Assembly (NCBI GenBank): GCA_016748015.1
Contig: JAAOMT010000261.1
Location: forward strand, 504,604 to 568,603
Source: Geosiphon pyriformis
Lineage: Eukaryota; Glomeromycota; Glomeromycetes; Archaeosporales; Geosiphonaceae
Direction: 5' to 3'
DNA length: 64,000 bases
Made by a program: the position numbers and the translations under genes. Positions 4,026 through 44,582 of the stretch are shown here, piece by piece. Within the stretch, counting starts at the first letter, position 1. Every line of letters starts with the position of its first letter. The notes under the pieces were generated by a model. It had not been told where the DNA came from and did not search any database. It saw only the letters and a list, made by a program, of their open reading frames with translations.

Positions 4026-5672
4026 TTAATATTAAGCTCTGTCAAGATCTCCTAATTCTAATTCTTCATCTTTGAGTATTTTTTGGACTTATTTTTTAAG
4101 AATTACTTGTGCTATCTTGTTTTGTAAGTCTTTAAATTAGGCATTAGTTATTTTTCCATTTGGTTAATGGTAATGGAGTTCATTTCTGAATTAAGTAAGA
4201 TTTCTGGTCGATCTTGAAATCTGATATGTAGCCAATAAATGGCTCTTACTTGTGTGGTCAAATTGTTTTTCCCCACAAATTGTTTCAGTTGTTGTAGTAT
4301 TGTTGTGTTAAATGATCGTTTTGTTTTATCTGTGTACAAGCCCTGAATGTTTAAGTATTGTTCCAAATAAAAATAACAAAAGTTTCTTGGAAATTATTGT
4401 ATCTACTGTTACTGGAGGTTTTTGGTCTCTTTTCTGTAATGTTGTTGATACCTGTTTGCTGTGAATTCACATTTTCTGGATGTGGTTGAACCTCCAGTAA
4501 CTGAATTTTCTCTTCAAATTATAGGAGATAATTTGAACTGCTGGGCTTATAAGTGGAATGGTCAATTCCATGCCAGTTACTTTATATAGTTACATTGTAG
4601 TAAACATCAACTCTTTCCCAGGAATTACTTATCTGGAAGCTTACTAAAAAATGTGTAGTTACTTTGCTGTGAAAGTCAACTCTTTTACAGGAATCTCATC
4701 TGTAGGCTACTTTAATAATTGTAATAAGAAAAGAAAAGAAAAATAAAAGAAATGTAAAAGAAATAGGATTTTATCAAGGGAAACGTTTTCTATCCAGGCC
4801 TGGAGTCACTAACAGTTTACTGAAATTGGTAGCTAATCAATTTCAAAACGTTAGTTGGGTTTTGAGGATTTTCCAAGTGCAATAATTAAAGAATTTGGTT
4901 TTTCGAATTATTTGATATTTATTTCTTTTTGTGTGTGTAGAAATGGTTCTAAGTGATAAATCTAAAGTAAGATACATTTTCCAGAAGAGAAAAGCTCTTC
5001 TTTTATACAACTTGTTGTAGTACTAATCTATGAACTTGCACTTTTTCTCTTTGCTCAAATTTCGGTGAACTAAAAATACATTTTGATAAACTACAAGTTA
5101 TTTCACTGAACTATTGATTAATTTGGGTGAACTATTCATAATTTCGGCGAATTTCTGTAAATTTCGGTGAATTTTTTATAAATTTCGGCGAATTTCTGTA
5201 AATTTCGGCAAATTTTTGAATGTTACAAAGTTCAGGGTATTGTGTAATTTGATAATCCTACTTTCTGTTATACTAATTAGATTATTTTAATTGAATCGTG
5301 ATATGTGATAATTGATTAAATAATAAATGATAATTTGAAATGATATTAATATATTAATTAATTATAGGAATTATAAGGGTAATTTTATGCTAATTAATAG
5401 CTAAAATTCTACTGGTAACACCACCAATTCCAAGTTTCTATAGTCAACTCTTGATAGTGAGTAACTTTTGGTTGTGTTTCTATTGCCAGTTTCACTTTTG
5501 CAATTATTTTGTCAACAGTGTTTTCTGTTTTTCTCTGTGTTTTATCTTATGTTCTTTTTCTGGTGTTTGTGTATCTAATAGTTTGTTGATTGATTGTAAT
5601 TTCTATTTTTTGTTGTTGTATTAGTTAAAAGAGTTGTTGTGCTAGTGAGTGAATGCTGTCAGTAATCACCAT
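4026..5672 (-). pseudogene. Element C ORF3, unknown protein, split by a solo LTR
   Basis: An unrecognised ORF between integrase and the PPT, present in the same place in A, B, D and E. On the minus strand it starts at ATG 5672-5670 (MVITDSIHSLAQQLF), is interrupted by the solo LTR at 4407-5420 just after a W-W pair, and resumes at 4406. The conserved core reads RAIYWLHIRFQDRPEILLN near 4190-4250. It ends with D-R-A-stop-Y-stop at 4026; the first stop replaces a Gln kept in the other copies. A frame change lies near 4366. No signal peptide or membrane segment is evident, so I see no support for an envelope role. Confidence 0.7.
4407..5420 (-). repeat. Solo LTR, family 1 (minus orientation)
   Basis: A 1014-bp LTR of the same family as the LTRs of element A, inverted, with TGTTAC/GTAACA ends and no internal sequence. 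The flanks are CTAC (4403-4406) and CCAC (5421-5424), a 4-bp duplication with one C-to-T difference. It sits inside ORF3 of element C; comparison with element B at about 44289-44305 shows uninterrupted sequence at the same site. It has about eight 20-bp U3 units (roughly 5055-5220), the longest array of this family in the window. Confidence 0.92.
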
Positions 5673-5739
5673 TTTCTGCTGTCTTTTTGTTGGATATACT
5701 GTGTGTTTATATACTCTTTTGATTGTTTAATTTTATGTG

Positions 5740-5962
5740 TTTGGTTCAATAATTATGATTGGTTTTAGATCTTATAAAATCTCATCTGGTTTGACTAGTA
5801 TTCTCTGTACTTCTAATTGTAGAATATTGTTGGTGGATAACAATGCTATATGGTAATATGGTTTCAGTCAATCACCATGTGCTGTTTTGGTTAAGATTTT
5901 GTTGTTCAATCTTAATTTATAAGCTCCATTTTCAAGAATTTCTTTTATGTGAAATAGTCTAT
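5740..5962 (-). pseudogene. Element C integrase, C-terminal end
   Basis: This minus-strand segment continues the integrase C-terminal module interrupted by element B. The upstream part ends at 45459 (WSGKFDPKWDS) and this part resumes at 5962 with FHIKEILENGAYKLRLNN. Together they make the GPY/F-like end seen in the other elements. No chromodomain follows. It stops before ORF3, which starts at 5672. Confidence 0.75.
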
Positions 5963-6783
5963 TGTTACTCATAAAATATAAGAAATATATTAGCATATAA
6001 ATTAGCCAATCAAAAGTAGCTGTAGTCAATGTGGAATTCCAGGATTCTCATATAAAAAATTGCAGGATTCCAGAATTCCAGGATTCCTCTCAAAAAGAAT
6101 TGCAAAATTTCTGGTGTAAAGAATTGAAGAATTGAGGAATCTTAATTATGTATATATATTGGTAGTGTTAAAAGTAAAAAAAAACAGACCTTCTAATTTA
6201 GATTTAATCTAAACAACTTTCCATTCACAAATATCAATAAATAATTATTCTTTATCTCCAATCTATTCTCTACTATCAACATGAAGTGTTGATAGTAATT
6301 GATATTTAATCATACTGGAACAATAGCTCTTGATCATGGCTATTGATGGAATACTAACTTGCAATTGCTTTTGTTTAAATTCTTAATCTTCTTTATTTTC
6401 TTTTATTTTCTTTTATTTTTTTTTTATTGCTGTTGTATTTCTTTTTGGTTGACTAATTAATTAAGAATTAAAGTACTGAATTATAGACATCATAGTGACT
6501 GGTAAAAGACCTGTGAAACAAGGGTAGAACACTTATAGATTTGAGGATAGCTTACCAGAAGGATTATTAGCCACCATGCTGAAAAAGAAATTTGACAGAA
6601 TTGCAATTCCAGGAGGCTACTAAAACAACTATTGAATCTCTGTTCATTATATAAAGAACTCAACAAAAACTTTCAGATACAAACAACTTTCAGATTACTA
6701 ATACCACCATCGCAAATAGCTTCTGAGCACCAAGTTATGGGTTTTGTTATTTGATTTAAAACCCCAAATAATCATCTGTAACA
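5963..6783 (+). repeat. 5' LTR of element B (family 2)
   Basis: An 821-bp LTR starting TGTTAC and ending GTAACA. U3 has a shortened palindromic GGAATTCC-type repeat block (about 6028-6138) and a TATATATA box at 6151-6158. A T-rich tract lies at about 6388-6426. It is about 40 bp shorter than its partner at 44596-45458; the palindromic block, which has fewer units here, appears to account for this. Confidence 0.92.
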
Positions 6784-6785
6784 TT

Positions 6786-6801
6786 TAGTGCTCCTTGTGA
6801 G
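6786..6801 (+). promoter_or_regulatory. Primer binding site of element B
   Basis: It lies two bases after the LTR and reads TAGTGCTCCTTGTGAG. The canonical first three bases TGG are TAG here, one G-to-A change. It resembles the PBS of C (TGGTGCTCCCTGTAAGG) and D (TGGTGCTTCTTGTGAG), which implies a primer tRNA ending in GAGCACCA or similar. I could not identify the tRNA. Confidence 0.65.
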
Positions 6802-6839
6802 ATATAACTCTACAGAGAACTAGTACCAACAACAAGCAT

Positions 6840-7340
6840 CCAAAAGTGGCAGAATTAGAAATCATAGAAGCAAACCATTTAGGATTTGCCAAATCCTTGT
6901 TTCAATAATACAGCCAACAATTAGAATTAAGCAATAATTATTTCCCAGCAGAATCAGTCTTTAACTTTTACATCAATAATAAAATCACAGACTGCTTAGG
7001 GAAAACAGTTAACATTGAATCCGCAAGAAAAAATTTCTATACAGAATTGTTTCAACATACCAGTTTACTAAGAAACTACAGTTCCATACCAATCATCAGG
7101 AAAATCAATTAAACTATCAAAAAGTACACTCAACAATAATTCCCTATTACTTATGCAAACAAAAACAAGGGAAGACTGCAAACACCAGTAGTAATACCAA
7201 AACAGATACAACCACCCACTTAGAAGAAAACCAGAGTTGAATTACTAACCAAACCATCATACTATTATACACCAGAAAGTGCCATCAATATTTTCTCAAC
7301 AGACACATCCACATCAAATGCGACATTAACCTTTGAATAA
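6840..7340 (+). pseudogene. Element B gag, N-terminal fragment
   Basis: The start of the capsid-precursor gene, from about VAELEIIEANHLGFAKSLFQ to the element D insertion at 7341. It parallels the element C gag N-terminus (minus, 55180-55560), for example around PITYANKNKGRLQTPVVIPK. Several TAA/TAG stops stand at Gln positions. No certain start codon is visible. The protein resumes at 17398. Confidence 0.65.
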
Positions 7341-8378
7341 TGTTATGAATAAACTTGGTGGGGTATGATGGTAATGTTTGGTGCTTTAATTTGGAGTTCT
7401 GGATTGGTCAGCTTTTGTCATATCAGTGTTATTAGTCTTTGAAAGTCTATTCCTGCACGTGAATTTACCCGTTGAGTTCTTTGGTTATAAGACACAGAGT
7501 TGGTATCTTGTCAATTGCAACATTTTTCTTTAAAGGTGAGCTTTTTTTTCCGAGCTAATGAGTATGGTCATTAGGGTCTGGTATTGTCTTTTTGCCCTTC
7601 TGGTAAGCTAACAAGATAAAGTTAATATCCAAAAACCTAAGGGGAGCTTCCCTCTTTTACCAGGCTATCACAAAGTCTATTCCCAGACAGTCAATTTTAC
7701 TATGTTGCTGCTCCACAAAAGAAAAAAAAAATAAAGAAAAAAAAAAAAAGAAAATAAAAGAGAATAAAAAGGGAAAGAGTAAAAGAAATTAGTATCGTCA
7801 ATTACCATGATCAAGAGTGATTGGTCCAAGTCATTAATGATTTAAGGTAGTTTATGCTAAGAGCATCTGTTCTGGAATGAGGTTAGGAAGTAATAAATCA
7901 ATTGAAACATAGAAGTTGGAAAACTCTAGGTTTGTAATTTGGAATATTTGATTTATTTTGAAATCTATGTACAGACTAAGATATAAGAGAGTAAAGGAAA
8001 TTTATTCTTGTCTAGCTGTTTGTTCTTTTAACTTCTATGACTACTCATTTTTATACATTCTTTTGGTTTTACAGGATTGCTTACAATTGTTATATTATCA
8101 CTAGCTATTGTTTCATTATTTCTATTATTGCTTCGTTATTTCTGTTATTGCTTTGTTATTCTATATTATTGCTAGTTATCTTATGTTATAACACATTATC
8201 TGGTATTATTACATGCTATTCTGTGTTATTCTATGTTATAACATGTTATCCTGTGTTATCCTAAGTTATAACGCATTATTCCACATTATTGCACATTATC
8301 CTGTGTTATGTCATGTTTTGTTCATGTTTTGGTCACATTTCTCTCCTAACTTGAATTGGTTTTTTTACTTGGGTAATA
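7341..8378 (-). repeat. 3' LTR of element D (family 4)
   Basis: A 1038-bp LTR with degenerate ends (TGTTAT at 7341; GTAATA at 8373-8378 for canonical GTAACA). Its U3, at the high-coordinate side, contains a 10-bp-period repeat array (about 8101-8310) followed on the minus strand by TATAAAAA at 8048-8055. An A-rich run at 7719-7765 on the plus strand is a pyrimidine tract in the sense direction. The PPT (AAAAAGAGAGGGATAA on the minus strand) abuts at 8379-8394. Confidence 0.92.
8101..8310 (-). repeat. Decamer-period array in the U3 of the D 3' LTR
   Basis: About 20 consecutive units repeat with an exact 10-bp period. On the plus strand they read like CTGTGTTATT, CTATGTTATA, ACATGTTATC, each with a central GTTAT or ATTAT. 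The array lies directly upstream (minus sense) of the TATA-like box at 8048-8055. The matching array in the other LTR is at about 17150-17330 and has a few units fewer at the low-coordinate end. Confidence 0.85.
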
Positions 8379-8392
8379 TTATCCCTCTCTTT

Positions 8393-9127
8393 TTAAAATT
8401 GAGCTCCTGCAAAACCATATGTATCTGTTGTTATGGCTTCATTCGTGTAATGTTAAATGGTTGCCTCGAATATTGCCTCTTGTAGATCTTTGAACTGTTG
8501 ATTGGTTATTCGTCCTATGTTGTTAATCATTATGGTTTTCATAGATCTGTTTAGTAGTACATTTGGACAATGTTGAAAGGTGGTGTATAGTCGGTATGCT
8601 GCTTTGTAATATAGGGTTAAGTTGTTTTTTCCTATGAATTTTTCTACTTGTTGCATTGTTTTTTTGTTGAACATTCTCTGGTTAAGGTTTTCATATGGTG
8701 TTTTCAAGTCAAGCTGCTTTCCAATTTTGTAGAACCAATAGGCTGGCAGAAGTTTTTTTTTCTATTTCTGGGCATTGTCTAGTGTCTATTCCTCTGTTTC
8801 GGGGAGTTTGGTCCTCTAAGCCAAAGCTTGTTTTATTTCTTCAAGCTCAGGGACCAAGTATCTTCTTTTATAAAATAATTCCCATTCTTTCACTCTTTCT
8901 TCTCCACCTCCCATCTGAAGGCAATTTTTCTTCCAATATTGCCTTTCGGATGGTATGTAGGAGAGAGAATGTTTAGTTCTTTTTGAACTTTCATCTTCTC
9001 CTCTCCTGCTTTTATCCTTGTACCATATCTCTTTTTTATCAATTGTTATTTTTATTTTAGCAGGAGATTGTTAAATTGCATCAAACAGTTGTTTCGAGAG
9101 TTGTAAAATTTGATCTAAAAGGTCCAT
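8393..9127 (-). pseudogene. Element D ORF3, unknown protein
   Basis: The conserved ORF between integrase and PPT, about 245 codons on the minus strand from ATG 9127-9125 (MDLLDQILQLSKQLFDAI) to the stop at 8393. The core AAYRLYTTFQHCPNVLLNR (about 8543-8599) matches the same block in A, B, C and E. The C-terminal G-A-Q-F-stop runs into the PPT, as in the other elements. Stops and a frame change lie in the middle. The region is charged and Gln-rich with no membrane segment. Function unknown. Confidence 0.75.
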
Positions 9128-9339: not shown

Positions 9340-10510
9340 TTTCCATAAGCTACTTTCTTTAGAATCTTGTCTTCCAATCATAATTTGTAAGCTCTATTTC
9401 CTAAAGCTTTGTGTATATGGAATAGACCGTCCCACTTTAGGTTGAACTTTCCACTCCACTGTTTTTCAGCTTTTGTACAGTGTAACAGTACTTGGTCTCT
9501 AATCTTGAATTTCATTGGTTGTTCAGACAGACAATCATCATGTCTTTCCTTTTGCCATTTTTGAGCATTACTAATATTATCAGCTGCTGTTTTTCGGTTG
9601 TTTTCTAATGTTTCCATTAGCTGGTACATTCTTTGGTATAAGGTAGCTTCAAAATTCTTTTCGGTGATTGTTTCTGTTGGGTAGGACAATATTTTTTATT
9701 CTATAGGTAATGTAGCTTTTCTTCTATAGACTAGTTCAAATGGTGTAAATTGTGTCATATTTTGCTTTAGTATTTGGTATGCAAAGAGTACTGAAGGTAT
9801 GAATAAGTCCCATTTTTGTTCATTTTTTTGACTTATTTTTGCTAGTGCTTCACACAGTGTTCGGTTAAACCTTTTTACCAGTCTGTTTGTTTGTGGGTGG
9901 TATAGTGACAATAAAGGATGTTTTATACCAAACCGTTGGCTTAGTTCAATTAGTGTATTATTAACAAAATGTGTTTCCTGATCAGATAATAATTCTTTTG
10001 GGCATTTATGTTGGCAAATTAGGTCTTGATGCACAAATTCGGCTACTGTTTTGGTGTTAGCCACTTGGATTGCTCTGGCTTCTGGCCATTTTGTAAGATA
10101 GTCTACTGCTATTGTGATGTAACAATTTTCTTTGGATGTTATGGAGAAAGGACCAACCAAATCGATCTCAATTCTATTAAATAGATTTCTAACTGGAATG
10201 GGTCAAAGTGGTTCTGTTATTCTGGCTCTTCCTCTTCACTGACATAAGTTACAATTGAGAACATATTCAAAGATATTCTTATATATTATAGGCCAATAGT
10301 ATAGATTTGTTGTTCTTTCCAAAGTCGTATCTTTGTTGAAGTGTTTTGAAGTTGAGTCAGAATGCATACTATATAATATAGCTTCTTTTTCACTGTCTTT
10401 GATTAATCATTGTGGGGTGGGGTGGTTTTGTTGTTTTTGATGATAGAGTTGGTCATTTTGAATAAAGTAATTTCGTGCTTGTTTCTATATGATATTTTGT
10501 TTCTGTTAAG
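9340..10510 (-). pseudogene. Element D integrase
   Basis: Integrase inserts the cDNA into the genome. The N-terminal HHCC zinc site is readable (MHSDSTSKHF, then NCNLC). The core has the first Asp (AVDYLTKWPEARA, near 10090) and second Asp (LLSDQETHFVN, near 9980). The catalytic Glu after YHPQTN is Lys (NRLVKRFNRT instead of GLIERF/GLVEHF in B and A), a G-to-A change. The C-terminal GPY/F-like module (WDGLFHIHKALGNRAYKL) ends near 9378. There are several in-frame stops. No chromodomain is present. Confidence 0.85.
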
Positions 10511-11876: not shown

Positions 11877-12810
11877 CACAATGTCTGTACATCTGAACTC
11901 ATTTTGCTGGCAAAGACATCAGCATACTGATTCAGAAAGACTTTAAGTTGCATTTGCTGTAAAGTGCTCAGATTTTCCAGGTTTAGTTTGTTGATTTCCT
12001 TGGGCATAAACAGGTAACTTTCTTTTGGCAAGTTCCATACTTGTGAGGTAATGTTACAAAACAGGAATAATTGTGCAAAATCTAGAATAGACTGGGGTTT
12101 TTTTGGATTCTGAATATCTGCAGATATTGAACTGACAAGGGTTCCCTTAGGAATCTTTATGAGATCCTTAGTCGGATTGTGAATGGAAATTTTGAAGTGT
12201 TTATAAGCCTTTGTTGGTAGATATAAGTTAGTAACATCGGCTAGGGAACAAATTTCATGGTTGGCTTTAAATAACAAGACTTGGTCTTGGTTTTTTCGAT
12301 TCACTTTGAGAATATATTGTCGATAGGGAGGGATGGAAATAACAGTGTCGGTGTAGATAAGTTCTACCTGGTCACTGTCTTCCTCTGTAAAATTGACTGG
12401 TACGTTTTTTCTTTCACTTGATCCAAACTTATTGATTCCTTGGGCAGTGAAACCTAATTCTTTGCAAGTAATAACTGGAGCTAATTGTGGTATTTTCACT
12501 AGAGACAGGAAGATAGCTTGGGCTATTTTGTTGTGTGATTCTATTTTGTAAGACCTATCCAAATTGTTCTGTAGCATCACAATGATATTTCCAGTATATC
12601 CAGCATTGATGATTCCTCTTTTTATATCAATTTCTTTCTTTGTGAGGCTAGATCTAGATGCTACTTGTATCATAATACTAACTGAAATTTCTAATGCTAT
12701 TTTGAGATCTATGCTTATTAGGGAGTGTGGGACTATGACTAAAGGTGATTGTTCAGGATATCATAAATCAAAGCCAGCATTAGTGTTATGTGCTCTTTCA
12801 GGGCAAATTC
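11876..12810 (-). pseudogene. Element D dUTPase domain and linker to RT
   Basis: dUTPase hydrolyses dUTP to dUMP and limits uracil in new cDNA. Motif 1 is NAGFDL (near 12765-12785), motif 2 RSSL(T)KK, motif 3 GIINAGYTGN, motif 4 HNKIAQAIF, motif 5 degenerate (INKFGSSERK). The catalytic Asp of motif 3 is Asn (12605-12607), again G-to-A. A roughly 150-residue linker follows, ending in an RT-proximal segment (LNLENLSTLQQMQLKVFLNQ). A stop follows motif 1. The domain is placed between protease and RT, as in all five elements. Confidence 0.85.
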
Positions 12811-13695: not shown

Positions 13696-13699
13696 TTTT

Positions 13700-16379: not shown

Positions 16380-16381
16380 AA

Positions 16382-21530: not shown

Positions 21531-21589
21531 GAACCAATGAAGAAAGATCTGAATAGAACCAGATAAATCCACAAAAAAACCACCAGCAA

Positions 21590-24619: not shown

Positions 24620-25840
24620 AACAACAATGAACAACCATCTTTACAAAAACCTTAGCCAATACTTGAAAACACTACAAATAGATGAAAAAATGCCAGTAAA
24701 AAAGCTAATTAAGCTCCAAAAATTAGCAAAACACTATTTTATTCAAAATCACATACTTTATTACCAGAATTGACAAATCCAGATAATCCATTAAGAGTTA
24801 TAACCACGGATGAAAAAAAAATTATCTTATTTAACATGTACTTAGATATTTATTCAGGCCACTTTGGAAAAACAGCAATCATCCAACATGCAACTAGCCG
24901 TTACTATTGGCCAAAAATAAGTTCAGACATAATCCAATACATAAAAAATTGTAACCTATGCCAATAAAGAGGAGGAGCAAAAACAACGGAATTATTAAGA
25001 CCAATAAAAGTTGAACAGTCATTTGACAGAATTGGAATTGATTTAGTTGGACCCTTACCAATAACAACAAGAAACAACTGTTATATTGCAGTAGCTGTGG
25101 ACTATCTCACCAAATGGCCAGAAGCTAGAGCTATTAAAACAGCTGATGCTATTTCCATAGCTCAATTTGTACATGAAGACTTAATTTGCCAGCATAGATG
25201 TTTACAAGAATTGCTATCAGATCAAGGCACACACTTTGTAAACAGCACCTTAAAAAAACTTAGCCAAAAATTTGGAATCAAGCGACCACTGTCATCACTA
25301 TACCACCCACAAACAAATGAATTAGTTGAAAAATTTAATCACACATTATGCGAATTACTGGCAAAAATTAGTAATAAACATAAAAAAGAATGAGATTTGT
25401 TCATACCAGCAGTACTACTAGCATATAGAACAGTAAAACAAGATACTATATAATTCACACCATTTGAACTAGTTTATGGAAGAAAAGTCACATCACCAGT
25501 TGAACTTACTATCCCAACTTATCTAAGTGACACTATCATTGAAGCAACATTCCAGGAAACACTACTTAGAAGAACATACGAATTAATGGAAACTTTAGAA
25601 AACAAAAGAAGAAAAACAGCACAAAATATTGAACAATCACAAAAACAACAAAAAGTAAGACATGATAACCAGTTACCAGATAATACAAAATTGGAGATAA
25701 AGTATTGTTGCATTGTACAAAAATGGAAAAACAATGAAGTAGAAAATTTGATCACAAGTGGGATGGACCATTTTATATTCATGAAATACTTGGAAATGGA
25801 GCATACAAGCTAAGACTAAATAATAAAATATTAAGAAAAG
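24620..25840 (+). pseudogene. Element E integrase
   Basis: The zinc site is partly lost: the first His of HHCC reads Tyr (MYLDIYSGHFG) while NCNLC remains. Catalytic core: AVDYLTKWPEARA (about 25092), LLSDQGTHFVN (about 25215), and the Glu in NELVEKFNHT (about 25318). Stops are TAA after NCNLCQ at a Gln-like position, TGA at 25391-25393 (Trp site) and one in KQDTI. The C-terminal part shifts frame after about 25680. No chromodomain. Confidence 0.87.
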
Positions 25841-26079: not shown

Positions 26080-26748
26080 ATGATACTTATTCTAGAAAAC
26101 ATCAACAATATAATTCAACAATTAGTTGAAAGCTTACAACAATTAAAATCCAATCTGAAAATCACAGTTAATAGCTTCAAAATAACATACATAAAAAGAA
26201 CAATAGAAAATCCAAAAACAAGAAAAGAACATAATTTTAAACCATATAATATTACCAAACATAACAACAAATTTATCAGCAAAGTTATTGAAAAATTAGA
26301 GATAGCATTGGGCAATACATTAATAATAGAAGAAATAGAAATAAGTGAATTAATACCAGACACATTTAGCAACTTGAAAACGAAATTTCCTATTAACTAC
26401 TGTTATTATTAACTAGGAAAGCACTTGAACATATAAACATTATACTTAAAAGACTCAACTAGAGTGTTTGACAAAACAACTATCCAATTATTAGAACCTT
26501 TTATTGAAAAAACCAATACTACATTCCATTCAAAAACAGTTTACAGAATTTTCAAAGCATTTGAAAACTGTCACAAACTATTGTTGGACCCAATCATAAA
26601 CATAATAACAACCAACAGTATTAGACAACTTACCAACTCACAATTTAAAGAATTACAACAACAAATTAATAACACAGTATTGAACCACTATAGTAACTTA
26701 GAATTTAATGAAGAAATTAACTTTGATTTCGACAGAGCTCAATTTTGA
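26080..26748 (+). pseudogene. Element E ORF3, unknown protein
   Basis: The clearest copy of ORF3: a single frame of 223 codons from ATG 26080 to TGA 26746-26748, with two internal TAA stops (26410 and shortly after). The frame differs from integrase, so separate expression is required. The N-terminal half is Asn/Ile/Lys-rich (NINNIIQQLVESLQQLK). The core TVYRIFKAFENCHKLLLDP is followed by IINIITTNSIRQLTNSQFKE. The C-terminus DFDRAQF abuts the PPT (GAAAGAAGGAAATAA). No membrane helix is visible. Not recognised. Confidence 0.8.
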
Positions 26749-26761: not shown

Positions 26762-27638
26762 TGTTATGGTTTAAGAATTTAGCAAAAGAATCATAAAAAT
26801 AATATAAACTATTTAATCATAATATAGTGCAGTAATAATCTTAGAAAAATAATGATTAACATAGTAGCAAACACCATCTCGTAATAGTGGCAAGTACCAG
26901 TTCACAATAGCAGTCAATACCAACTGGTAATAGCAGCAAACACCAGGTTAAAATATCAAAAAGAAAGTATTACAATGTGTTTTCTCATAGAACTACAAAC
27001 ATGTATATATACAGTAGCTTTAATATTGAAAAAAGTAATAAAGTAATAAAAAAAAATCATAACTTATCAAGCAATAAATCCAATTTATCCAACAAATTCC
27101 ACTTTAAATCGTACCTTTAAATTAAATATTCCAAGAAATCTTTAAATCAAAAAGAAATGAAAAAGAATATTTAAAACTAAATTATCATAATCCCAAAGTA
27201 GTAAGAAACTCAGTTGTGTTAATTATTGAATGAAACTATCATTCATCAGTTGAATTCCTTGGAAGAATAATCTCTGATCAAGATTATTTACGTTGTTACT
27301 AATTGATAAAAGCTTTATTGTGAGAATTAAGAAAAGTGCTAAAGACCATTAACATTCTGTATTTCTAGATTAGAGAAACACATCAGACAATTGCAAGAAT
27401 ATCCTCAGAAAAGACCCCAAACAGTGGGTAGATTTCAGTTCAGCCTCTGAGAAGAAATACATAAACATACACAACAATCAGGAATTGAAAAATAACTTAC
27501 ATTACGACATTAAAGAGAAAGTCTTCAGTATAACAGTGACATTATTACACAAATAGAATTGAGGAACTTACGAGAAACTGATTGCAATTAAAATGAGATA
27601 TCGGCAATTAAATATAACAAAAAAACCATCTCATAACA
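26762..27638 (+). repeat. 3' LTR of element E (family 5)
   Basis: An 877-bp partner of 17941-18816 with TGTTAT and ATAACA ends, containing the 23-bp array at 26859-26950. The differences from the 5' LTR that I saw are mostly transitions. Confidence 0.93.
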
Positions 27639-32004: not shown

Positions 32005-32220
32005 TGTTACCAGATGAAATTAGAGATATTATTTAGCATGAAATTATCTTATAAATCCTATTATTAATTAGCATATATTATCGTTTCAAATTATCACTTA
32101 TTACATTAGCAAAATGTCCGAAATTATCATTTAATTAATAACCCAATTTGTACACAACACAAATGTAACCTAATTGCGATAATTAAATCATGCAATAACC
32201 CGAACTATGTAACATTCAAA

Positions 32221-32340
32221 AGTTCGCCGAAATTTGTAGAAATTTGCCGAAATAATTGATAGTTAACTGAAATATCTAATAGTTTGCAGAAATAACTTGT
32301 AGTTTGCCAAATGTATCTTTAGTTCAGCGAAATTGTAGAA
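32221..32340 (+). repeat. 6 x 20-bp tandem array in the U3 of family 1
   Basis: Units begin at 32221, 32241, 32261, 32281, 32301 and 32321. The core resembles AGTTCGCCGAAAT, an imperfect TTCNNNGAA palindrome. The array ends 43 bp upstream of TATAAAA. Equivalent arrays are at about 41047-41167, 1146-1245 and 5055-5220, with differing unit numbers. It is probably a transcription-factor binding array, inferred from position and palindromy. Confidence 0.85.
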
Positions 32341-32383
32341 AATAGCAAAGTTCAAGTTCATAGAATAGTGTTATGACAAGTTG

Positions 32384-32390
32384 TATAAAA
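32384..32390 (+). promoter_or_regulatory. TATA box of the A 5' LTR
   Basis: TATAAAA follows the 20-bp array. The same box is at 41211-41217 in the 3' LTR. Comparable TATA-like boxes follow the repeat block in families 2 (6151-6158), 4 (8048-8055, minus) and 5 (18183-18190). Confidence 0.6.
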
Positions 32391-32988
32391 GAAGAGCATC
32401 TCTCTTCGAGAAAATGTATCTTACTTTAGATTTATCTCTTAAAACCGTTCCTATACACACAAAAAGAAATAAATATCAAATAATTTGAAAAAACCAAATT
32501 TTTTAATTATTGTACTTGGAAAATTCCCAAAACCCAACTAACATTTTGAAATTGATTAGCTACCAATTTCAGTAAACTGTTAGTGATTCCAGGCCTGGAT
32601 AGAAAACGTTTCTCTTAATAAAAAATCCTATTTCTTTTATTTTTCTTTTATTTTTCTTTTTTTTTCTTATTACAATCATTAGGGTAGCCTACAGATGAGA
32701 TTCCTGTAGAAGAGTTGACTTTCACAGCAAAGTAACTACACATTTTTAGTGAGCTTCCAGACAAGCAATTCCTGGGAAAGAGTTGATGTTTACTACAATG
32801 TAACTACATAAAGCAACTGGCATGAAATTGGCCATTCCACTCATAAGTCCAGCAAGTTCAAATTATAGGAGATAATTTGAAGATAAATTCAGTTACTGAA
32901 GGTCCAACTACTTCCTGAAAACGTGAATTCACAACAAATCAACATTAACAACATTTAAGAAAAGAGACCAAAAACCTCTGGTAACATT

Positions 32989-33004: not shown

Positions 33005-34970
33005 AAATAATACAGCAACAACAAAATTCAAAGTGGCAACCACACCAGACGCAACAACTTTAGAGTATTACCAATCAATTTACACCCACTGCAAGCAAAG
33101 ATTCAACATTCCAGACAAAATTGAAGTTGTCAAGAAATCAGTATACTAATACATTGAAAACTGCATTAACAATTATCTTTTTGGAAATTACAATATCTCA
33201 GAAATTAGAAGCAATCTTTACAATAATTTAGCACATTATTCACAGTTGGGAACTGAAGACCTTAACAGTGAAACACTTGCCACTTACTTTCATGAACTTA
33301 ATTTTAACATTATCAAATACTGTGAAGAAACATATCCAGTACAGTCTCAATACTCTATTGATTTTGAATCAGAAACAGAAACAAGCAACAAAGGCAAAAA
33401 CAAATTGAAGCAATACTCAAAAACCACTCCAAATACTCCAACACTACCAAAAACAACTGCCAACCATTTACAAACACCTGAACAAGGAACCAGTTTAAAA
33501 CTTCTACTTACTATCACACCTTTTCCAGCTTCACTTGCACAAGCACAAACGCCTAATTCACCCTTGAATCGATTTACAAGACCAGAAGATTTTACATCAC
33601 TTAAAAGTCCCATCAGACAACAAGAACTCCTTCAAACTAGTTCCAATCTCCTTGACTTTCTAGCTGAAAATCAAAGTGAACACTCTAAGACAGCAGCAAA
33701 TGAAGAAAATGAATCTGAAATATCTGAAAAAGAATCAATAGACAGTGAAAATGAAGAAGACAAAATGACAACATACATCGCAAAAATCCTTGAATTTAAT
33801 GGAGAAGACATTGAGACCAGTTCCCAAGAATGGCTCGACCAAGTTACTAAAGCTGAAGATGCAAATGGATGGAATGCTGCCAGAATGTTAAGAACAATTT
33901 CCTACTTTCTCAAAGGAATAGCAGGAGAATGGTTTGAAAACTTGGCCACCCCATTCAATAATTGGAACACTTTCAAAGCAGCCTTTCTTGAACAGTTTAC
34001 TGACAATAATACCTCCATCACCCTTCGCAATTGTTTTCGAAATATCAAACAAGAACTCTCTGAATCTGTTATGCCTTATATTAGGAAATTCAACAAACTT
34101 CTCAGACAAATTTGCCAACTCAAAACAAATGATTATTATTCCGATGCTCAAATCTTGAATCAATTTATTGCTGGTCTAAAAGATAAACTAATTAAAAAGA
34201 TTTGCCCACATGCACCAAAAGATTTAAACTCTGCCATACAGTATGCGAAAAGATACAAAATGGCCATGGAAGAGGCCAATCGCACAAAACTTGTAAATTT
34301 GGCAATTGGAAAAACCAGCTCAGCAGCTGAGGAAAAAATTGACCAACTCACAAAGAAGGTTGAAAACTATTTCACCAATCAACAACAACAGCAACCCCAA
34401 AGATATTAACCACCCCAAAGACGAAATCAAAATAACTTTGCATTACTTTCCAATAACCAGCCTCAGAATTGCCATTACTGTGGAATCTCTGGCCACTGGA
34501 AAAGAGATTGCAGAAAGCTACAACGAGACCAACAAAATAGGAGTAATTAACATTACCCTCCACCACAGCAATCTTATTATCAACCACCACCACCAGCTTA
34601 CTATCCACCAAGATCCCAATACCAAAATAACTATTATCAGCCTGCCCCACAGCCAATCCAATAGCAATACCAACAACCACCCACACAACATTATCAAGTA
34701 CCTGCTCAAAGACTGATCACACAAAATCAATTCACACCACAAAACCAATACCAAGTAAACAACAATAGAATCAGTTTGAACAACCAATTGGTTTCCCGAA
34801 ATTCCACTCAACCAAGACCCAACCACTACCACACTCAATCCAGTTATTTAACAATGCCAGAAGAACAGGATTTTTACCATACTGCACCCTTGAAAAATAG
34901 AGCTGCAGCACAACAACAAAACCCTTTCTATACTCCCACCACAATCTCACCAGCCAAAATCGCTGAAAAG
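33003..34970 (+). pseudogene. Element A gag
   Basis: The capsid/nucleocapsid precursor. The frame starts near 33003 (no convincing ATG) and has one TAA at 33147 (Gln site), then is open to 34409. The N-terminal domain (LEYYQSIYTHCKQRFNIPDK) is followed by a Ser/Thr/Glu-rich spacer (33380-33760), the Retrotrans_gag-type core (TTYIAKILEFNGEDIETSSQ, ISYFLKGIAGEWFENL, QILNQFIAGLKDKLIKKICP) and the intact knuckle CHYCGISGHWKRDC at 34470-34511. A Gln/Pro/Tyr-rich tail follows. The stop at 34407 and two later ones (TAA, TAG) mostly replace Gln. A frame change near 34975 separates gag from the protease. Confidence 0.88.
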
Positions 34971-35599: not shown

Positions 35600-36262
35600 A
35601 ATATTTCTTACTCAAAATCCGAACCAAGAAAACAACACCCCTATATTCCCCTTAAATATAAGGACTGCCACAAGAAACTATTGTCAATGGGAGCCTGCAT
35701 TTCACCTGAAGAAGAATATAAGAATCATACTTGTTATTACTGCAAGGCTTGCCACAGAGAATAATGGGGCCATCTAATAAAAAGAAGTGGAAAATGGGAT
35801 AACACCCCTTGTTTGACTTGTGGAGATATGCTACCAGAAGAATGCAATTGGATTGATGTAGCCATGAGAGGAGGAGTCTGTGATCAGACCTGCCAATATG
35901 CTTTATCAATTTCAGAAAAAGTAAAAAGAGAAACACCCTTTAATGCAGCATACAACAGTGCTCTTAACAAACTTTATTACTATTCTCATAATGCCGAGAT
36001 GATTTTTGATCTAGCAATGACATTAATTAATGGAGCTACCAAAGAAGATGTTCGTCAAATAAAGGAAGCAGAATACATTGAATACACCATGGAATTAGCT
36101 GGATTTGATTACGAAGACAAAGTAGAAGTCTATTATTAAATTGCAAGTCACACCTACCTAACTCAAGAAGCTCAAATTCAATGATTAGAGCAAATGAACA
36201 TTAGGCTATGTGAAGAATGCATTATGTCTTGTGATGAAAAGTGGTGTCCTGAATGCTATGCT
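35600..36262 (+). pseudogene. Element A cysteine-rich (putative zinc) module
   Basis: Part 1: DCHKKLLSMGACI, CYYCKACHRE, then a TAA, CLTCGDMLPEECNWIDVAMR, CDQTCQYALSISEKV (35660-35920), followed by an alpha-helical stretch open to 36139. Part 2: LCEECIMSCDEKWCPECYA at 36206-36262, six cysteines spaced CX2CX3CX4CX2C. Part 2 lies in the same open frame as dUTPase (ATG 36194). Stops at 36137 and 36182 separate the parts. Confidence 0.78.
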
Positions 36263-37240
36263 CTTAGTATCCCTTTGCTCAACAAAAATAATGAGAACGA
36301 AATTAAATTTGGAGAACCTGAAGCAACGGAAGAGATTGAAACAACACCCATCTACCTTATTGAAAATCAGCCTGTCTTACAACTTAAATACTTCAACAAC
36401 AACGGACAAAAAATAAAACCCGAAAAAGCACACAAAATTAATGCTGAATATGAGCTAAGATATCCAGGCAAGGATACTTTTGTTCTTAAACCCAAATCTC
36501 TCACAAAAATCAACCTCAAAATTGCACTCGAAATCCCACCAGGAGCAATGGTTCAAATTACCTTCTGGTCCTCTCTGGCATGCAAAAAAATCAATGTCAG
36601 AGGAAAAATAATTGATGCTGGATATACTGGAGACATTACAGTGATGCTTCAAAATAAAACTGACAAACTATTCAAGATCAAACATGCTAAAAAAATTGCC
36701 CAAGCTATTTACCTACTTCTAATCAACATTTCAGGTTTGCAACTAGTCAATCAAAGAGAACAATTAGGAAAAAGTGATAGAGAAACCCAAGGTTTTGGTT
36801 CAACTGGACGATTCACAGTTCCAGTTAATATAGCTCTTAACACACAGAACAAATTCCACCAGATTCTCAGACTTCCACAACCAATTACTATCTCATTCTT
36901 TGGAGAACATCTGGAAATCTACATCTGCCCAAAGCCAACAACCACACAACAAATTTTTGAGTCCAATGAACAAGTCTGCTTAGAGCATAATATTTTGATC
37001 CCAAACATTTATATTCCAGAAGGAACAAAGAAAGTCCAAGTTACTTTTTACAACCCCAATAATTACCCCATAATTTTATTAAATAATTTAGAAATTGGAG
37101 TTATTCACAGTAATAGATTTCAACAAAAATTACCCCAAACAGTTCTCGATTTCTCTGAAATTATTGGACATCCACTACCAAAAATCAACCCAAACCCCAG
37201 CTCCAAAAACTACCATGTTGTCATGGAAAAACTATCTTAA
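36194..37240 (+). pseudogene. Element A zinc part 2 + dUTPase domain + linker, open frame
   Basis: A 348-codon open stretch of the pol frame. Residues 6-21 carry the CxxC cluster. dUTPase motifs: 1 NAEYELRYPG (83-92), 2 WSSLACKK (125-132), 3 GKIIDAGYTGD with catalytic Asp141, 4 AKKIAQAIYL (165-174), 5 TQGFGSTGRF (198-207). Motif 1 has Glu for Gly/Asp at two sites. The roughly 140-residue linker contains ILIPNIYIPEGTKKVQVTFY and ends at TAA 37238-37240, a Gln site just before RT. The frame runs on into RT beyond it. This is the most complete dUTPase in the window. Confidence 0.9.
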
Positions 37241-38650: not shown

Positions 38651-40036
38651 ATGAATTCAAAAAACTACAACAATCTCAAGCAATATTTGGAAACATTAAC
38701 AATTCCAACAGATTGGTCTCCAGATGAAAAACATTGACTACAACAACAAGCCAAACAATATTTTCTACACAACAACATTATTTATCATCAAAATTTCAAA
38801 AACCCAAACAAACCACTCAGATTAATACAAAAACAGAAAAAAGAGACCATATTATACAACATGCACTCAGATCCTTCATCAGCACACTTCGGAAAAGATG
38901 GCACCACCCAAAAAACACTAGAATACTACTTTTGGCCTTGAATGAGAAAAAACATTCACGAATATGTCAAATCTTGTGATAGTTGTCAAAGAAGAGGAGG
39001 AACATGCCTTACTGAACCATTAAATCCAATCAAAGTTGGACAACCCTTTGACCGAGTTGGTATTGATTTAGTTGGACCACTATCTATCATCACTCAAGGA
39101 AACCATTATATTGTAGTAGCTGTAGACTATCTTACTAAATGGCCTGAAGCCAGAGTCATTCAACAAGCAGATGTGAAATCAGTAGCAAATTTCATTTACA
39201 AAGACATTATTTGTAGACATGAATGTCTAATTGAACTTTTATCCGATCAGGAGACACACTTTGTAAACAACCTGATACAAGAAATTTGCGAATGATTCAA
39301 TGTCAAAAGACCTCTGTCTTTGCCCTACCATCCACAAACAAATGGACTTGTAGAACATTTTAACAGAACATTGTGTGAGTCATTAGCCAAAGTCTCAACT
39401 GATTTTGAGTAAGAGTGAGATATCTTTATTCCATCAGTATTGCTAGCATACAGAACACTAAAACAAGATACCACAAAACACACACCATTTGATTTAACTT
39501 ACGGAAGGACAGCAACATTACCAATTAGTTTTACAGTGGAAACATACCTAGCACAACCAATCGATAAAAATGATTTTCAAGAAACGCTTCAGCGAAGAGC
39601 CTACACTCTGCTTAGCACATTAGAAAAAAAATGATGAATAGCAGCCACCCATATTGAACACTCCCAAGCTCAACAAAAAGAATGGCATGATGACAAATTG
39701 CCTCCAGTCACCAATGAATTTAAAATTGAAAACAAAGTTCTCTTACACAGAACTAAAGCTGAAAAACAATGGAGTGGAAAATTTGAAAATAAATGGGATA
39801 GACCATTCTTTATTCATGAAGTTCTAGGCAACAGATCATACAAGCTAAGACTTGATAACAAAATCTTAGCAAAAGTTGCACATGGAGATTGTTTGAAACA
39901 CTATTATTCCAGAAACAATCCTGAACCATTAATTCCACAAATTGGTACACATTCCTCTTTAGTCAATCCTGAAGATATTTCCCAAAACTTAAAACCAATA
40001 GTTGTCATTGAACAATCTTCCAATCTGAACACTTAA
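38651..40036 (+). pseudogene. Element A integrase
   Basis: The HHCC zinc site is intact (NMHSDPSSAHFGKDG, then SCDSC). Core: AVDYLTKWPEARV (about 39120), LLSDQETHFVN (about 39238), NGLVEHFNRT with the catalytic Glu (about 39340). Stops include TGA at 39293-39295, TAA and TGA near 39410-39420 (E-stop-E-stop-D, the second at a conserved Trp) and TGA-TGA near 39632. The C-terminal GPY/F-like module (WDRPFFIHEVLGNRSYKLRL) is open to TAA at 40036. No chromodomain. Confidence 0.9.
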
Positions 40037-40142: not shown

Positions 40143-40819
40143 ATGACTATTCCTCAAAACATTCAACAATTATCCCAAAAACTAATATTAGCTTTAAAAA
40201 TAATACCCAAATTATCTATTACTGTTACTGGAAACCACATTAATTATACCCAAACAGAAGTAGTTACAAATTTAGCTCCAAATTCACGAAAATATCACCC
40301 ATATAAGAAGAACACAAGAAGTTATTCTGGAATTCACCTGCCAGAACTTTTAAAGCTTGCTTTAAGAGAAAACCTAATGCTCACCCTGATTAGTATTCCA
40401 TCAAATGCTACAATTTAACAAAGACTTCAACTGTGTCTTAATGAGAAAAATACTGAATATCCTCCAATTTATAGATATTTCCACATTGAAAAAACACTCT
40501 ACGAACGGAAACTGGAACTTACAACAGCAAATCTCATAAAAGAAGCTATTTAAAAACAACTCCACAACAAATTCAAAACAACAGCTGGACCAACAAACAG
40601 TCACTACAAGCTCAGAACTGCTCTTAGACTTTATAACCTATTCCACACCTGTGAAAATGTCCTACAAAACCCAATTTTATGACCTTTGAAGATTCAATAC
40701 ATTAAAAAGCTCACAGAACTGAAATTTCAACAATTTTTAGACCAAATTTCTTCAATAATTTTGGATTACTATCTGGAAATTACAGACAGTACTTGGACTT
40801 TGACAGAGCTCAGTCTTAA
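40143..40819 (+). pseudogene. Element A ORF3, unknown protein
   Basis: It starts at ATG 40143 (MTIPQNIQQLSQKLILAL), 106 bp after the integrase stop and in another frame. Stops are TAA near 40416, TAA near 40551 and TGA near 40680 (Trp site). The core TALRLYNLFHTCENVLQNP is followed by IQYIKKLTELKFQQFL. After a small frame change it ends DFDRAQS-stop at 40817-40819, just before the PPT (AAGAAGGAGG). The pyrimidine-rich spacer before it could hold a splice acceptor, which is inference only. Function unknown. Confidence 0.78.
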
Positions 40820-40830
40820 GAAGGAGGTTA

Positions 40831-41813
40831 TGTTACCAGACAAAATTAGAGATATTATTTAGCATGAAATTATCTTATAAATCTTATCATTAATTAGCAT
40901 ATATTATCATTTCAAATTATTACTTATTACATTAGCAAAATGTCCGAAATTATCATTTAATTAATAATCCAATTTGTACACAACACAAATGTAACCTAAT
41001 TGTGATGATCAAATCATGCAATATCCCGAACTATGTAATATTCAAAAGTTTGCCGAAATTTGTAGAAATTCACTGAAATAATTGATAGTTCACTGAAATA
41101 TCTAATAGTTTGCAGAAATAACTTGTAGTTCGCCAAAATGTATCTTTAGTTCAGCGAAATTGTAGAAAATAGCAAAGTTCAAATTCATAGAATAGTGTTA
41201 TGACAAGTTGTATAAAAGAAGAGCATCTCTCTTCAAGAAAATGTATCTTACTTTAGATTTATCTCTTAAAACCGTTCCTATACACACAAAAAGAAATAAA
41301 TATTAAATAATTCGAAAAAACCAAATTCTTTAATTATTGTACTTGGAAAATTCCCAAAACCCAACTAACATTTTGAAATTGATTAGCTACCAATTTCAGT
41401 AAACTGTTAGTGATTCCAGGCCTGAATAGAAAACATTTCTCTTGATAAAAAATCCTATTTCTTTTACATTTCTTTTATTTTTCTTTTCTTTTCTTATTAC
41501 AATCATTAGGGTAGCCTACAGACAAGATTTCTGTAGAAGAGTTAACTTTCACAGCAAAGTAACTACACATTTTTAGTGAGCTTCCAGATGAGCAATTCCT
41601 GGGAAAGAGTTGACATTTACTACAACATAATTACATAAAGCAACTGGCATGGAATTGGCCATTCCACTCATAAGCCCAGCAAGTTCAAATTATAGGAGAT
41701 AATTTGAAGATAAATTCAGTTACTGGAGGCCCAACTACTTCCTGAAAATGTGAATTCACAACAAATCAACATTAACAACATTTAAGAAAAGAGACCAAAA
41801 ACCTCCAGTAACA
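40831..41813 (+). repeat. 3' LTR of element A (family 1)
   Basis: A 983-bp partner of 32005-32986. The ends are TGTTAC and GTAACA. It contains the 20-bp array at about 41047-41167 and TATAAAA at 41211-41217. It is followed by the CCAT duplication at 41814-41817. Confidence 0.94.
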
Positions 41814-42576: not shown

Positions 42577-42605
42577 AAACATTTTAAACCCAAAATTATA
42601 ACAAA

Positions 42606-43984
42606 ATATGAATATACAAAAATACCAACAATTCCAACATTATATAAATACCCAATTGTTCAAGGAGAAATTATCTCAAAAAAAACAAAACAACATAAAA
42701 CAACAATCAAAATATTTTAACAATTACCAAAATATACTTTACTGAAAAAACAAAAAGAATCCAGATCAACCAACCAGAGTAATCACAGAACCAGAAAAAG
42801 AGACAATACTATTCAACATACACTCAGATCCAACAGCAGGACATTTCCACAAAGAAGCAACCATTAAAAGAACCAGAAAAAGATACTATTGACCATTTAT
42901 GTATCCAGACATCATCTAATATGTTCAAAATTGTAATGTTTGTCAGAAAAAAGGAGAAACAAAACCTAGTGAACCATTAAGACCAATTAAAATAAGACAA
43001 CTATTTGATTACATTGGAATTAACTTAGTCAGATTATTAACAATAACCAGCAGAGGCAACAGATATATTGCAGTAGCTATGGACTATTTTACAAAATGGC
43101 CAAAAGCAAAAGCCATTCAAAGAGCAGATGCAGAATCTGTTGCTGAATTCATTCATTAAGATTTGATCTGTTAACATGGATGTCCAAAAGAACTACTATC
43201 AGATCAAGAAACTCACTTTGTGAATAGAACATTAGAAGAATTAAGTCAAAGATTTGGGATAAAAAAACCATTATCATCACCATATTATCCACAAACAAAT
43301 GGGCTAATTGAAAGGTTTAACAGAACATTGTGTAAAGCCATTGCCAAAATCAGCCAAGAAAACCAGGACGAATGGGACTTAATTATACCATCAGTATTAT
43401 TTGCTTATTGGACAATGAAGCAAGACACTACACAAACAACACCATTTGAATTAGTATATGGTAGAACAGCAACATTACTAGTTGAAGTAAAAGTCAACAT
43501 TTATTTAACAGAACCAATAATTAAAGACAATTTTCAAGAAATGTTGCTAAAAAAAACATATGACTTGATGGAAACTCTAGAAAACAAATGACGAAAAGCA
43601 GTTGATAACATCCAAAAGTCACAAGAAAAACAAAAAGAAAGGCATGATAACCAACTACTGAATAAACCAGTTGAATTTAAGATTGGAGACAAAGTACTTC
43701 TATATTGTACCAAAGTGGAAAAACAATGGAGTAGAAAATTTGACCCCAAATGGGACGGACTATTTCACATAAAAGAAATTTTTGAAAATGGAGCTTATAA
43801 ATTAAGATGGGACAACAAAATCTTAACCAAAGCAGTACATGGTAATTAACTGAAACCATATCACCATATAGTGTTACCATTTACTAGTAATATTTTACAA
43901 TTAGGAGTACAGAGAATACTAATGCAATCAGATGAGATTTCACAAGATCTGGAACCAATCATAATTATTAGACCAAACATGTAA
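42606..43984 (+). pseudogene. Element B integrase
   Basis: The HHCC site is intact (NIHSDPTAGHFHKEATIKRT, NCNVC). Core Asp in AMDYFTKWPKAKA (about 43078), second Asp in LLSDQETHFVN (about 43195), Glu in NGLIERFNRT (about 43300). It is open from 43220 to 43591 (TGA at an Arg position). The C-terminal module WDGLFHIKEIFENGAYKLRW is present. It ends at TAA 43982-43984. This copy covers, uninterrupted, the site where B itself entered element C. Confidence 0.88.
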
Positions 43985-44017
43985 AATTGAACAATAAAAA
44001 AAAAGTATATAAAAACA

Positions 44018-44582
44018 TGATAGACATGACAAAAGACATCAGAAAAATAGAAATTACTGACAACATTCATTTACTAGCACAACAACTTTTCCAATTAATC
44101 TAACAATGGGATATGAAAATTATCATTAATTAATAAACCATTAGATATAAAGATACCAGAAAAATATCTCAATACAAAGTACAAAAGAAAATGGAAAATG
44201 CTGTTGATAAAATAATTTTAAAAGTAAAATTGGCAATAAAGGAGCCAACAAATGTCACTACATATCAAGAAGTGACTAAAGAAACTTGGATGTGGTGGAT
44301 ACAACAATACTACAACAATTTGAGAAATTTATGGGAAAGAACAATCTAACAACACAAACAAGAACCATCTATCGATTACATGCTGGATTTCAAGACCAAC
44401 CAGAAATCTTACTTAATCCAGTAATGAACACTATCACTATTAACCAGATGGGAAAAATAATTAATGTCTAATTTGGAGAGTTACAGAACAAGATAACACA
44501 AATAATACTTGAAAAAGAAGTCCAAAAAATACTCAACAACAGAGAATTAGAATTAAGAGATCTTAACAGAGCTCAATATTAA
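44018..44582 (+). pseudogene. Element B ORF3, unknown protein
   Basis: It starts at ATG 44018 (MIDMTKDIRKIEITDNIHLL) and ends N-R-A-Q-Y-stop at 44580-44582, just before the PPT. The core TIYRLHAGFQDQPEILLNP is followed by VMNTITINQMGKIINV (44355-44470). A frame change lies near 44280. The region around TWMWWIQQ/VVDTTILQQFEKF is the uninterrupted equivalent of the solo-LTR site in element C. Confidence 0.75.

Follow-up and report, generated by a model that had tools for sequence, protein, structure and literature searches.

Four families of Ty3/gypsy retrotransposons of Geosiphon pyriformis carry, between the integrase (IN) gene and the 3' LTR, a homologous third coding region (ORF3) that very probably specifies a selected accessory protein. 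One gene in the env position has been kept across these four families, in many copies, within one genome. We propose that these elements have in ORF3 an accessory gene that is particular to their lineage and unrelated to an envelope, probably regulatory, whose product may act on the element's own RNA, a reading to which we assign a probability of roughly one half.

Retrotransposons and ORF3 copies of the window

The window, that is, the whole stretch of DNA analyzed, comprises 64,000 nt of G. pyriformis (Glomeromycotina; GCA_016748015.1, JAAOMT010000261.1, positions 504,604-568,603, forward strand). Geosiphon is a fungus hosting cyanobacteria, and repeats make up 64% of its genome. The Ty3/gypsy elements of the window are arranged as gag, protease (PR), dUTPase, reverse transcriptase (RT), RNase H (RH) and IN, followed by a sense-strand ORF3 and then by the 3' LTR. 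In Pfam searches, element A possesses a Ty3-type Gag (Retrotrans_gag, 4e-14; Ty3_capsid, 5.9e-9) and a protease, and element E matches RVT_1, RNase H and rve, with PR and RT-RH before IN as in Ty3/gypsy elements (Metaviridae). Two LTRs are found in A, D and E, the pairs being 84.8-95.1% identical. Rfam and tRNA scans across the window gave no match. The domains and LTRs located are:

24968..25390, + strand: integrase core of E (rve, 3.6e-10), upstream of ORF3
38942..39292, + strand: integrase of A (rve, 1.7e-6, below the curated cut-off)
9699..10202, - strand: integrase core of D (rve, 3.8e-10)
43175..43588, + strand: integrase of B, placed by alignment with the integrases of A, D and E rather than by Pfam
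36185..37237, + strand: dUTPase-domain frame of A (PF00692, 1.7e-14)
11879..12760, - strand: dUTPase-domain frame of D (PF00692, 3.8e-13)
40831..41813, + strand: 3' LTR of A (5' LTR 32005-32986, 95.1% identical)
26762..27638, + strand: 3' LTR of E (5' LTR 17941-18816, 93.4% identical)
7339..8376, - strand: 3' LTR of D (5' LTR 16380-17395, 84.8% identical)

The ORF3 regions are:

40143..40859, + strand: A, broken; open pieces 40143-40415, 40419-40550 and 40554-40679
44017..44582, + strand: B, broken; N-terminal piece 44017-44100 and C-terminal piece 44298-44468 in different frames
4026..5672, - strand: C; N-terminal piece 5666-5628, C-terminal piece 4312-4151, other sequence between them
8393..9127, - strand: D; N-terminal piece 9127-9074, open C-terminal piece 8758-8456
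26080..26748, + strand: E; open pieces 26080-26409 and 26437-26745, internal stops between them

A reading of the sequence alone had credited each of the five elements with a separate ORF after integrase. The coding region is indeed present in all five, always on the strand of pol, but in none is it an intact single ORF: A and E have internal stops, the two pieces of B lie in different frames, some 1.1 kb of other sequence separates those of C, and D contains stops. Over the 223 codons of E, the ORF3 frame has 3 stops, the terminal one counted, vs. 27 and 25 in the other frames; in A the numbers are 3 vs. 17 and 13, and the ORF3 frame of this family continues beyond the PPT into the 3' LTR. 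Some copies are surrounded by apparent open frames as long as 2000-3000 aa; these were rejected as polyproteins, since in those fetched the length comes from runs of N.

Homology across families and copies

ORF3 is homologous among the families: when full-length copies representing A, B, D and E are aligned, z ranges from 10.2 to 41.4, and in each of 15 pairs, subfamilies E2 and A2 included, none of 500 shuffles matches the real score. Nine of ten pairs of the C-terminal pieces in the window also align (z 6.4 to 35.8), the exception being A vs. C, which is not significant (127/500 shuffles attain the score), and for the N-terminal pieces the alignment of A and E has a z of 6.0. The hydrophobic-Gln pattern previously noticed at the N-terminus is borne out as a Gln-containing helix, and the "I.I...I.Y" hairpin is real as well. 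Family A is outermost in the comparison of ORF3 and also in that of IN. Most simply, ORF3 would have come down from an ancestor shared by at least four of the families.

Full-length annotated ORF3 proteins exist for families A, B and D (e.g., P0004, P0124 and P0126). Of 30 family-E loci, 9 have a frame that is open along the entire ORF3, and so do 9 of 30 in family A, where one of these open copies has Ile in place of the start codon. Among the matches listed, the 265 homologue rows, beyond which lie 121 others, represent at least 248 distinct proteins, all of Geosiphon, to which ORF3 would on these matches be confined; many Geosiphon "hypothetical proteins" are therefore one transposon gene. 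The 239 annotated proteins compared with the ORF3 set fall into A (115), B (79), D (40) and E (5) and no other family; some of them are fusions with other pieces. A pattern search of IMG/VR gave 44 matches, none a relative, and among the open-licence PMC papers listed, neither a title nor the opening of an abstract mentions this ORF3.

Codon-level constraint and the conserved DNA motif

Because four families and many copies coexist in one genome, conservation, divergence and selection of ORF3 can be measured. The pN/pS of eight copy pairs was compared with neutral values (300 nulls per pair), and constraint was detected in six. Two comparisons of E with E2 gave 0.35 and 0.40 vs. neutral values of 0.64 and 0.63 (0/300 nulls each), and a B-B pair gave 0.19 vs. 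0.58 (0/300), with 58% of its differences at third positions vs. 34% in the null. Two A pairs (2/300 and 0/300) and one E pair (2/300) are also constrained; one D pair (66/300) and one other E pair (91/300) are indistinguishable from neutral, as expected where copies died recently. Together, between-family homology and codon constraint support the earlier suggestion that ORF3 has been selected for a function in the life cycle of the elements.

The C-terminal end of ORF3 is a different matter. The motif TTGACAGAGCTCAATWTT, with up to three mismatches, occurs five times in the window, once per element end, where 0.35 occurrences are expected:

40800..40817, + strand: PPT-adjacent conserved DNA motif of A, in a frame that differs from the other families
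44563..44580, + strand: the same motif in B
4028..4045, - strand: the same motif in C
8395..8412, - strand: the same motif in D
26729..26746, + strand: the same motif in E

What the sequence-only reading took for a conserved protein terminus, "D/N-R-A-Q-F/Y/S", is this DNA motif instead, which family A translates as "..TELSL..". With its last residues explained in this way, ORF3 might be regarded as no gene at all, only a conserved cis element combined with AT-rich composition; however, the remaining ~200 residues are homologous as protein and bear codon-level constraint, and these results refute the explanation, which we consider extremely improbable. Complete divergence of the LTRs, also stated before, was too strong: an alignment of 885 bp (75%) joins those of B and C, and patches of ~25-180 bp are common to members of the set A, B, C and D. 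The E LTR has only 17-20 bp matches to the others, which are of no weight.

Frame relative to integrase and expression

No frame relation between ORF3 and IN is common to all families. Relative to IN, ORF3 is in frame 0 in 22/22 copies of E, in frame 2 in 22/25 of D and in frame 1 in 2/3 of B, and in A it is mixed (11/11/3 of 25, counts that come partly from decayed copies); the spacer from IN stop to ORF3 start is 61-122 nt in the values listed. Family E, in which ORF3 follows in frame behind a conserved IN stop (TAA in 21/22), is what would be seen if ORF3 were a C-terminal integrase extension made by stop-codon readthrough or frameshifting. This is quite improbable, since ORF3 lies in another frame in 24/25 copies of D, 2/3 of B and 22/25 of A (decayed copies included) and the A spacer is found in all three phases.

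As its frame varies by family, ORF3 is probably translated independently, and its own AUG would be reached on a spliced or subgenomic RNA or by reinitiation after pol. Among 16 copies, all 14 with an ATG start have a purine at -3, and no obvious splice acceptor was seen by eye upstream of the ORF3 ATG. The gene models P0240 and P0243, which contain gag, and P0002 fuse ORF3 to gag or LTR pieces and may be gene-caller artefacts; part of the P0002 tail matches LTR-internal sequence, as, judged by eye, does part of that of P0003. These models were set aside as evidence of a spliced mRNA.

Protein features

The ORF3 protein is about 209-245 aa long and is predicted to begin with an amphipathic helix, followed by a beta-hairpin and, after a linker of variable sequence, a C-terminal domain made of helices, in AF2 models of modest mean pLDDT (64.4 and 61.7). 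Its pI ranges from 6.5 to 9.7, the charge not being uniformly basic. Patterns resembling an NES occur in all six representatives, but these are loose helix patterns. Hydropathy upholds the earlier remark that there is no membrane helix, the maximal 19-residue Kyte-Doolittle mean in these six representatives being 1.05. ORF3 occupies the position of env, but with no segment hydrophobic or long enough to span a membrane and with no env family matched in Pfam, an envelope protein conferring infectivity is hardly credible.

The HMM searches and structure prediction that had been suggested matched ORF3 to no Pfam family, PDB relative or known fold: in Pfam, 11 members searched at E <= 1 had no GDSL or DEDDy family among their matches and no RNA-binding domain, nor any DNA-binding or chromatin domain over the cut-off, and solved structures (PDB) yielded no relative by sequence or by fold. 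Of two resemblances seen by eye, an EF-hand, from "N..G.[IL]T..QF..L", was rejected, and no EF-hand family is among the Pfam matches. A duplication of Gag, suggested by a slight likeness of the C-terminal part to the N-terminal domain of the element's own Gag, is not supported by hhalign, which gave E values of 0.39 and 0.28 with a Gag profile of 4 sequences only. A virion-structural helper, whether an additional protein of Gag-like, capsid or matrix type or a packaged RNA chaperone, would agree with a predicted helical protein that has an amphipathic N-terminal helix and lacks a membrane helix, and we regard it as unlikely.

Possible roles

The elements probably use ORF3 to manage or protect their own copying. 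By analogy, a regulatory role at the RNA level is possible, if short of even odds, with the protein serving its own element, as CERV serves Cer1, by acting on the export of the RNA from the nucleus, on its stability or on its packaging; RNA export specifically is rather unlikely. Counting against an RNA-level role are the lack of any RNA-binding domain in Pfam or relative among solved structures, the charge that is not basic throughout, and the want of an obvious splice acceptor.

An alternative of low probability is that ORF3 is an anti-silencing factor, one that frees the element from DNA methylation or heterochromatin of the host, in the manner of the VANC proteins that plant VANDAL elements encode. 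The copies decay almost only by transitions, mostly at CpG-type sites. In eight E copies, 62/67 variable columns are transitions, and CG or CA/G sites are variable in 13/16 cases vs. 21/95 for CA; in eight A copies, the corresponding numbers are 123/141, 33/38 and 25/89, the CA/G context being partly circular as counted. Such decay fits host CpG methylation, a pressure that would favor an anti-silencing factor, but methylation pressure by itself is silent on the role of ORF3, and the missing DNA-binding or chromatin domain also argues against this role. More tentatively, ORF3 may represent a new class of accessory protein, outside the folds and families known so far, which these elements cannot do without in a symbiotic fungus that methylates its DNA, be it for RNA export or for anti-silencing, and which helped several gypsy families to expand alongside one another in this repeat-rich genome. 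The role of ORF3 is open to a single-gene assay.

Comparison with known systems

In many LTR elements the place of env is reported to be taken by an ORF that lacks clear homology and to which no function has been assigned (PMC10309623). CERV of the Caenorhabditis elegans element Cer1 is an env-position ORF with a tested role, a nuclear protein that unspliced gRNA needs for its export; it is 517 aa long and is made from a spliced five-exon mRNA, of which exons 1-3 are in the gag frame (PMC10309623). Like ORF3, CERV lies between pol and the 3' LTR without env features, but ORF3 is 209-245 aa long with its own ATG, and the likeness is one of position. Third ORFs other than env are also found in bdelloid rotifers, where those of LTR retrotransposons are described as GDSL esterases, DEDDy exonucleases or env, are family-specific, and in several lineages accompany a dUTPase (PMC5408684). 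The Geosiphon ORF3, in contrast, matches neither of these enzyme domains and is common to four families. The additional ORFs of plant Retand elements, with a TRP28 domain, are antisense to gag-pol (PMC11963269) and are set apart by orientation from the sense-strand ORF3. In fungal Ty3/gypsy elements with a dUTPase, such as PosPlaTy3-5, this domain lies between protease and reverse transcriptase, as it does here, but the account of these elements describes no comparable conserved third ORF (PMC2864245).

Element anatomy

The five Ty3/gypsy LTR elements A to E lie in the genome of Geosiphon pyriformis (Glomeromycotina, Archaeosporales; 124.7 Mb), for which a published table gives repeats of 64.35% and a largest scaffold of 2733.91 kb (PMC9453076). 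Pieced together from parts found in different elements, chiefly A and E, the element order is gag (Retrotrans_gag, Ty3_capsid), protease, a Cys-rich domain, dUTPase, RT-RNase H, integrase, ORF3 and 3' LTR. The sequence-only reading counted four families among the five elements, and this holds, as the LTRs of B and C are 75% alike over 885 bp and thus place both in a single family. The reading frames suggest that A is nested within the RT of B.

Features of the elements (window positions)
32005-32986 / 40831-41813, plus strand, mapped LTR pair of A
17941-18816 / 26762-27638, plus strand, mapped LTR pair of E
7339-8376 / 16380-17395, minus strand, mapped LTR pair of D
22568, plus strand, dUTPase-like motif, element E
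36611, plus strand, dUTPase-like motif, element A
30734, plus strand, dUTPase-like motif, element B
12610, minus strand, dUTPase-like motif, element D
48689, minus strand, dUTPase-like motif, further element
18965-19252 (plus), 33150-33370 (plus), 15990-16250 (minus), gag N-terminal domain, similar among families
1148-1233, 32220-32325, 41046-41151, plus strand, ~20-nt repeat units containing GCCGAAAT

The dUTPase-like motif is found at these five places in the window and not in element C; Pfam, run on A and D, matches dUTPase at 1.7e-14 and 3.8e-13, respectively, and fungal gypsy elements with dUTPase are already on record (PMC2864245). The Cys-rich domain between protease and dUTPase (A, 35765-36136; E, 21557-22002; both plus strand) is conserved between A and E, with an alignment score of 182 against 29 ± 5 for shuffles (0/500 reaching 182), and a Pfam scan of the A copy gives no match. 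The gag of several families carries a similar N-terminal domain ahead of the capsid part, with 22-35% identity to the E copy, and copies of the ~20-nt unit (..GCCGAAAT..) are found repeatedly in A's LTRs as well as in related sequence near 1.1-1.9 kb.

ORF3 homology, copies and distribution

ORF3, the third sense-strand gene, had been proposed to be homologous across the families, and shuffle tests bear this out: z is 10.2 to 41.4 for the A/B/D/E pairs, with 0/500 shuffles reaching the score in each. In BLAST against a 12-sequence database the best between-family match is 2.9e-38, while A versus B is weak (1.5e-4 to 5e-4 in most comparisons). Between-family identity is 25-36% for ORF3 versus 60-74% for integrase, for which comparisons involving B cover just 25-104 aligned residues; A is outermost by both proteins.

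All five window copies of ORF3 are broken, yet the coding frame is evident; in E, frame 0 holds three stops (one terminal) and the other two frames 27 and 25. When the whole genome was searched with ORF3 pieces from E, D, A and B, every search gave 150 scored matches, down to E values of 5.7e-20, 1.8e-39, 1.1e-44 and 2.2e-18, respectively. First-look candidates number 3571, 3619, 1269 and 2525 in the same order, which are not copy counts; the four lists may overlap and each includes the window's own copy. ORF3 is open over its whole length in at least 9 of 30 fetched E loci, a lower bound because at least 7 of the 30 read N across part of it, and in 9 of 30 fetched A loci, one with Ile at the start codon. 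By the pattern used, none of 30 fetched D loci is fully open; a full-length D protein exists (P0126, 244 aa), as do full-length B proteins (P0124, 209 aa; L091, from loci L091-L094, picked for fetching on open appearance).

Three protein searches listed the best 120 of 229, the best 120 of 132 and 25 of 25 matches, and among the matches listed all 265 rows (248 distinct proteins, P0001-P0248) are from G. pyriformis. In the second search the 12 further matches are weaker than 7.8e-15, and the third, with a single B protein as query, reached B-type relatives only. A match in these searches requires 5-residue words in common, and more distant relatives in other fungi may therefore escape them.

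Selection and decay

Nei-Gojobori dN/dS of ORF3 is 0.10 for B-B (1 pair), 0.31 for E-E (28 pairs), 0.46 for E2-E2 (1 pair; E2, a subfamily of E) and 0.47 for D-D (3 pairs), with medians of 0.27 for E-E2 (16 pairs) and 0.33 for A-A (28 pairs); between-family medians are 0.36-0.58, with dS near saturation. Because ORF3 substitutions are mostly transitions, a neutral null was applied to eight hand-chosen pairs of open copies, in which the same base changes were moved to random sites with stops forbidden and without CpG context, which is relevant since decay concentrates at CpG-type sites. The null mean is 0.58-0.71, so that the raw values overstate constraint. The selection proposed earlier is detected in six of the eight pairs (at most 2/300 nulls reaching the observed value); a D-D pair (66/300) and one E-E pair (91/300) do not differ from neutral.

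Decay of ORF3 is nearly all transitions, clustered at CpG-type sites (eight E copies, L004-L027; eight A copies, L062-L090), as expected from cytosine methylation. The hypermutable CpG-type sites in ORF3 copies keep in play an alternative for its role, that of an anti-silencing factor. VANC proteins are the anti-silencing proteins of plant VANDAL elements. One study (PMC8647823) reportedly concerns epigenetic regulation of TEs in Rhizophagus.

Frame and protein properties

The frame of ORF3 relative to integrase, counted with decayed copies included, is 0 in 22/22 E copies, 2 in 22/25 D copies and 1 in 2/3 B copies, and in A it is 1 in 11, 2 in 11 and 0 in 3 of 25; the spacer is 61-122 nt among the values listed. 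The frame differs by family, which leaves neither readthrough nor a single fixed frameshift as a mechanism common to all of them. Position -3 of the ATG is a purine in all 14 copies that start with ATG, out of 16 compared, and inspection by eye found no convincing splice acceptor upstream. ORF3 may be made from spliced RNA or by reinitiation.

Hydropathy predicts no membrane helix, in agreement with the sequence-only reading, and pI is 6.5 to 9.7. AF2 models of one B and one A protein (mean pLDDT 64.4 and 61.7) both combine an N-terminal helix and a beta-hairpin with a linker modeled at low confidence and a C-terminal part made of helices; in the A model, block means are 77-91 for residues 81-170 and ~30-57 for helix, hairpin and linker. 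No known fold was recognized in them, and at such confidence they are no evidence for a new one.

A conserved motif beside the polypurine tract

TTGACAGAGCTCAATWTT, with up to 3 mismatches allowed, occurs in the window at exactly the five element ends, and GAGCTCARTNTT matches exactly, once each, in 62 of 94 fetched loci.

18-nt motif adjacent to the polypurine tract (window positions)
A 40800-40817, B 44563-44580, E 26729-26746, plus strand
C 4028-4045, D 8395-8412, minus strand

The motif is conserved across families whose LTRs are mostly unalignable. The C-terminal residues of ORF3 had been thought conserved, but it is the DNA that is: E, B and D mostly read it as ..GAQ[FSY]*, whereas A, whose frame extends ~10 codons into the LTR, reads ..ELSL... 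The best interpretation of the motif is a cis-acting sequence adjoining the polypurine tract, possibly a signal for plus-strand priming.

Role of ORF3 and comparison with known systems

ORF3 is firmly a constrained, non-membrane accessory protein with a frame not tied to integrase. By analogy with CERV, the accessory protein of C. elegans Cer1 described in PMC10309623, and given the weakness of readings as an env, an enzyme or a Gag-like protein, we infer that ORF3 may regulate the element's own RNA. ORF3 defines a new family of proteins that several families of elements have conserved, all within the one fungal species in which it was found among the matches listed. It is not the first of its sort, because non-envelope third ORFs are already known in bdelloid ORF3, CERV and plant Retand.
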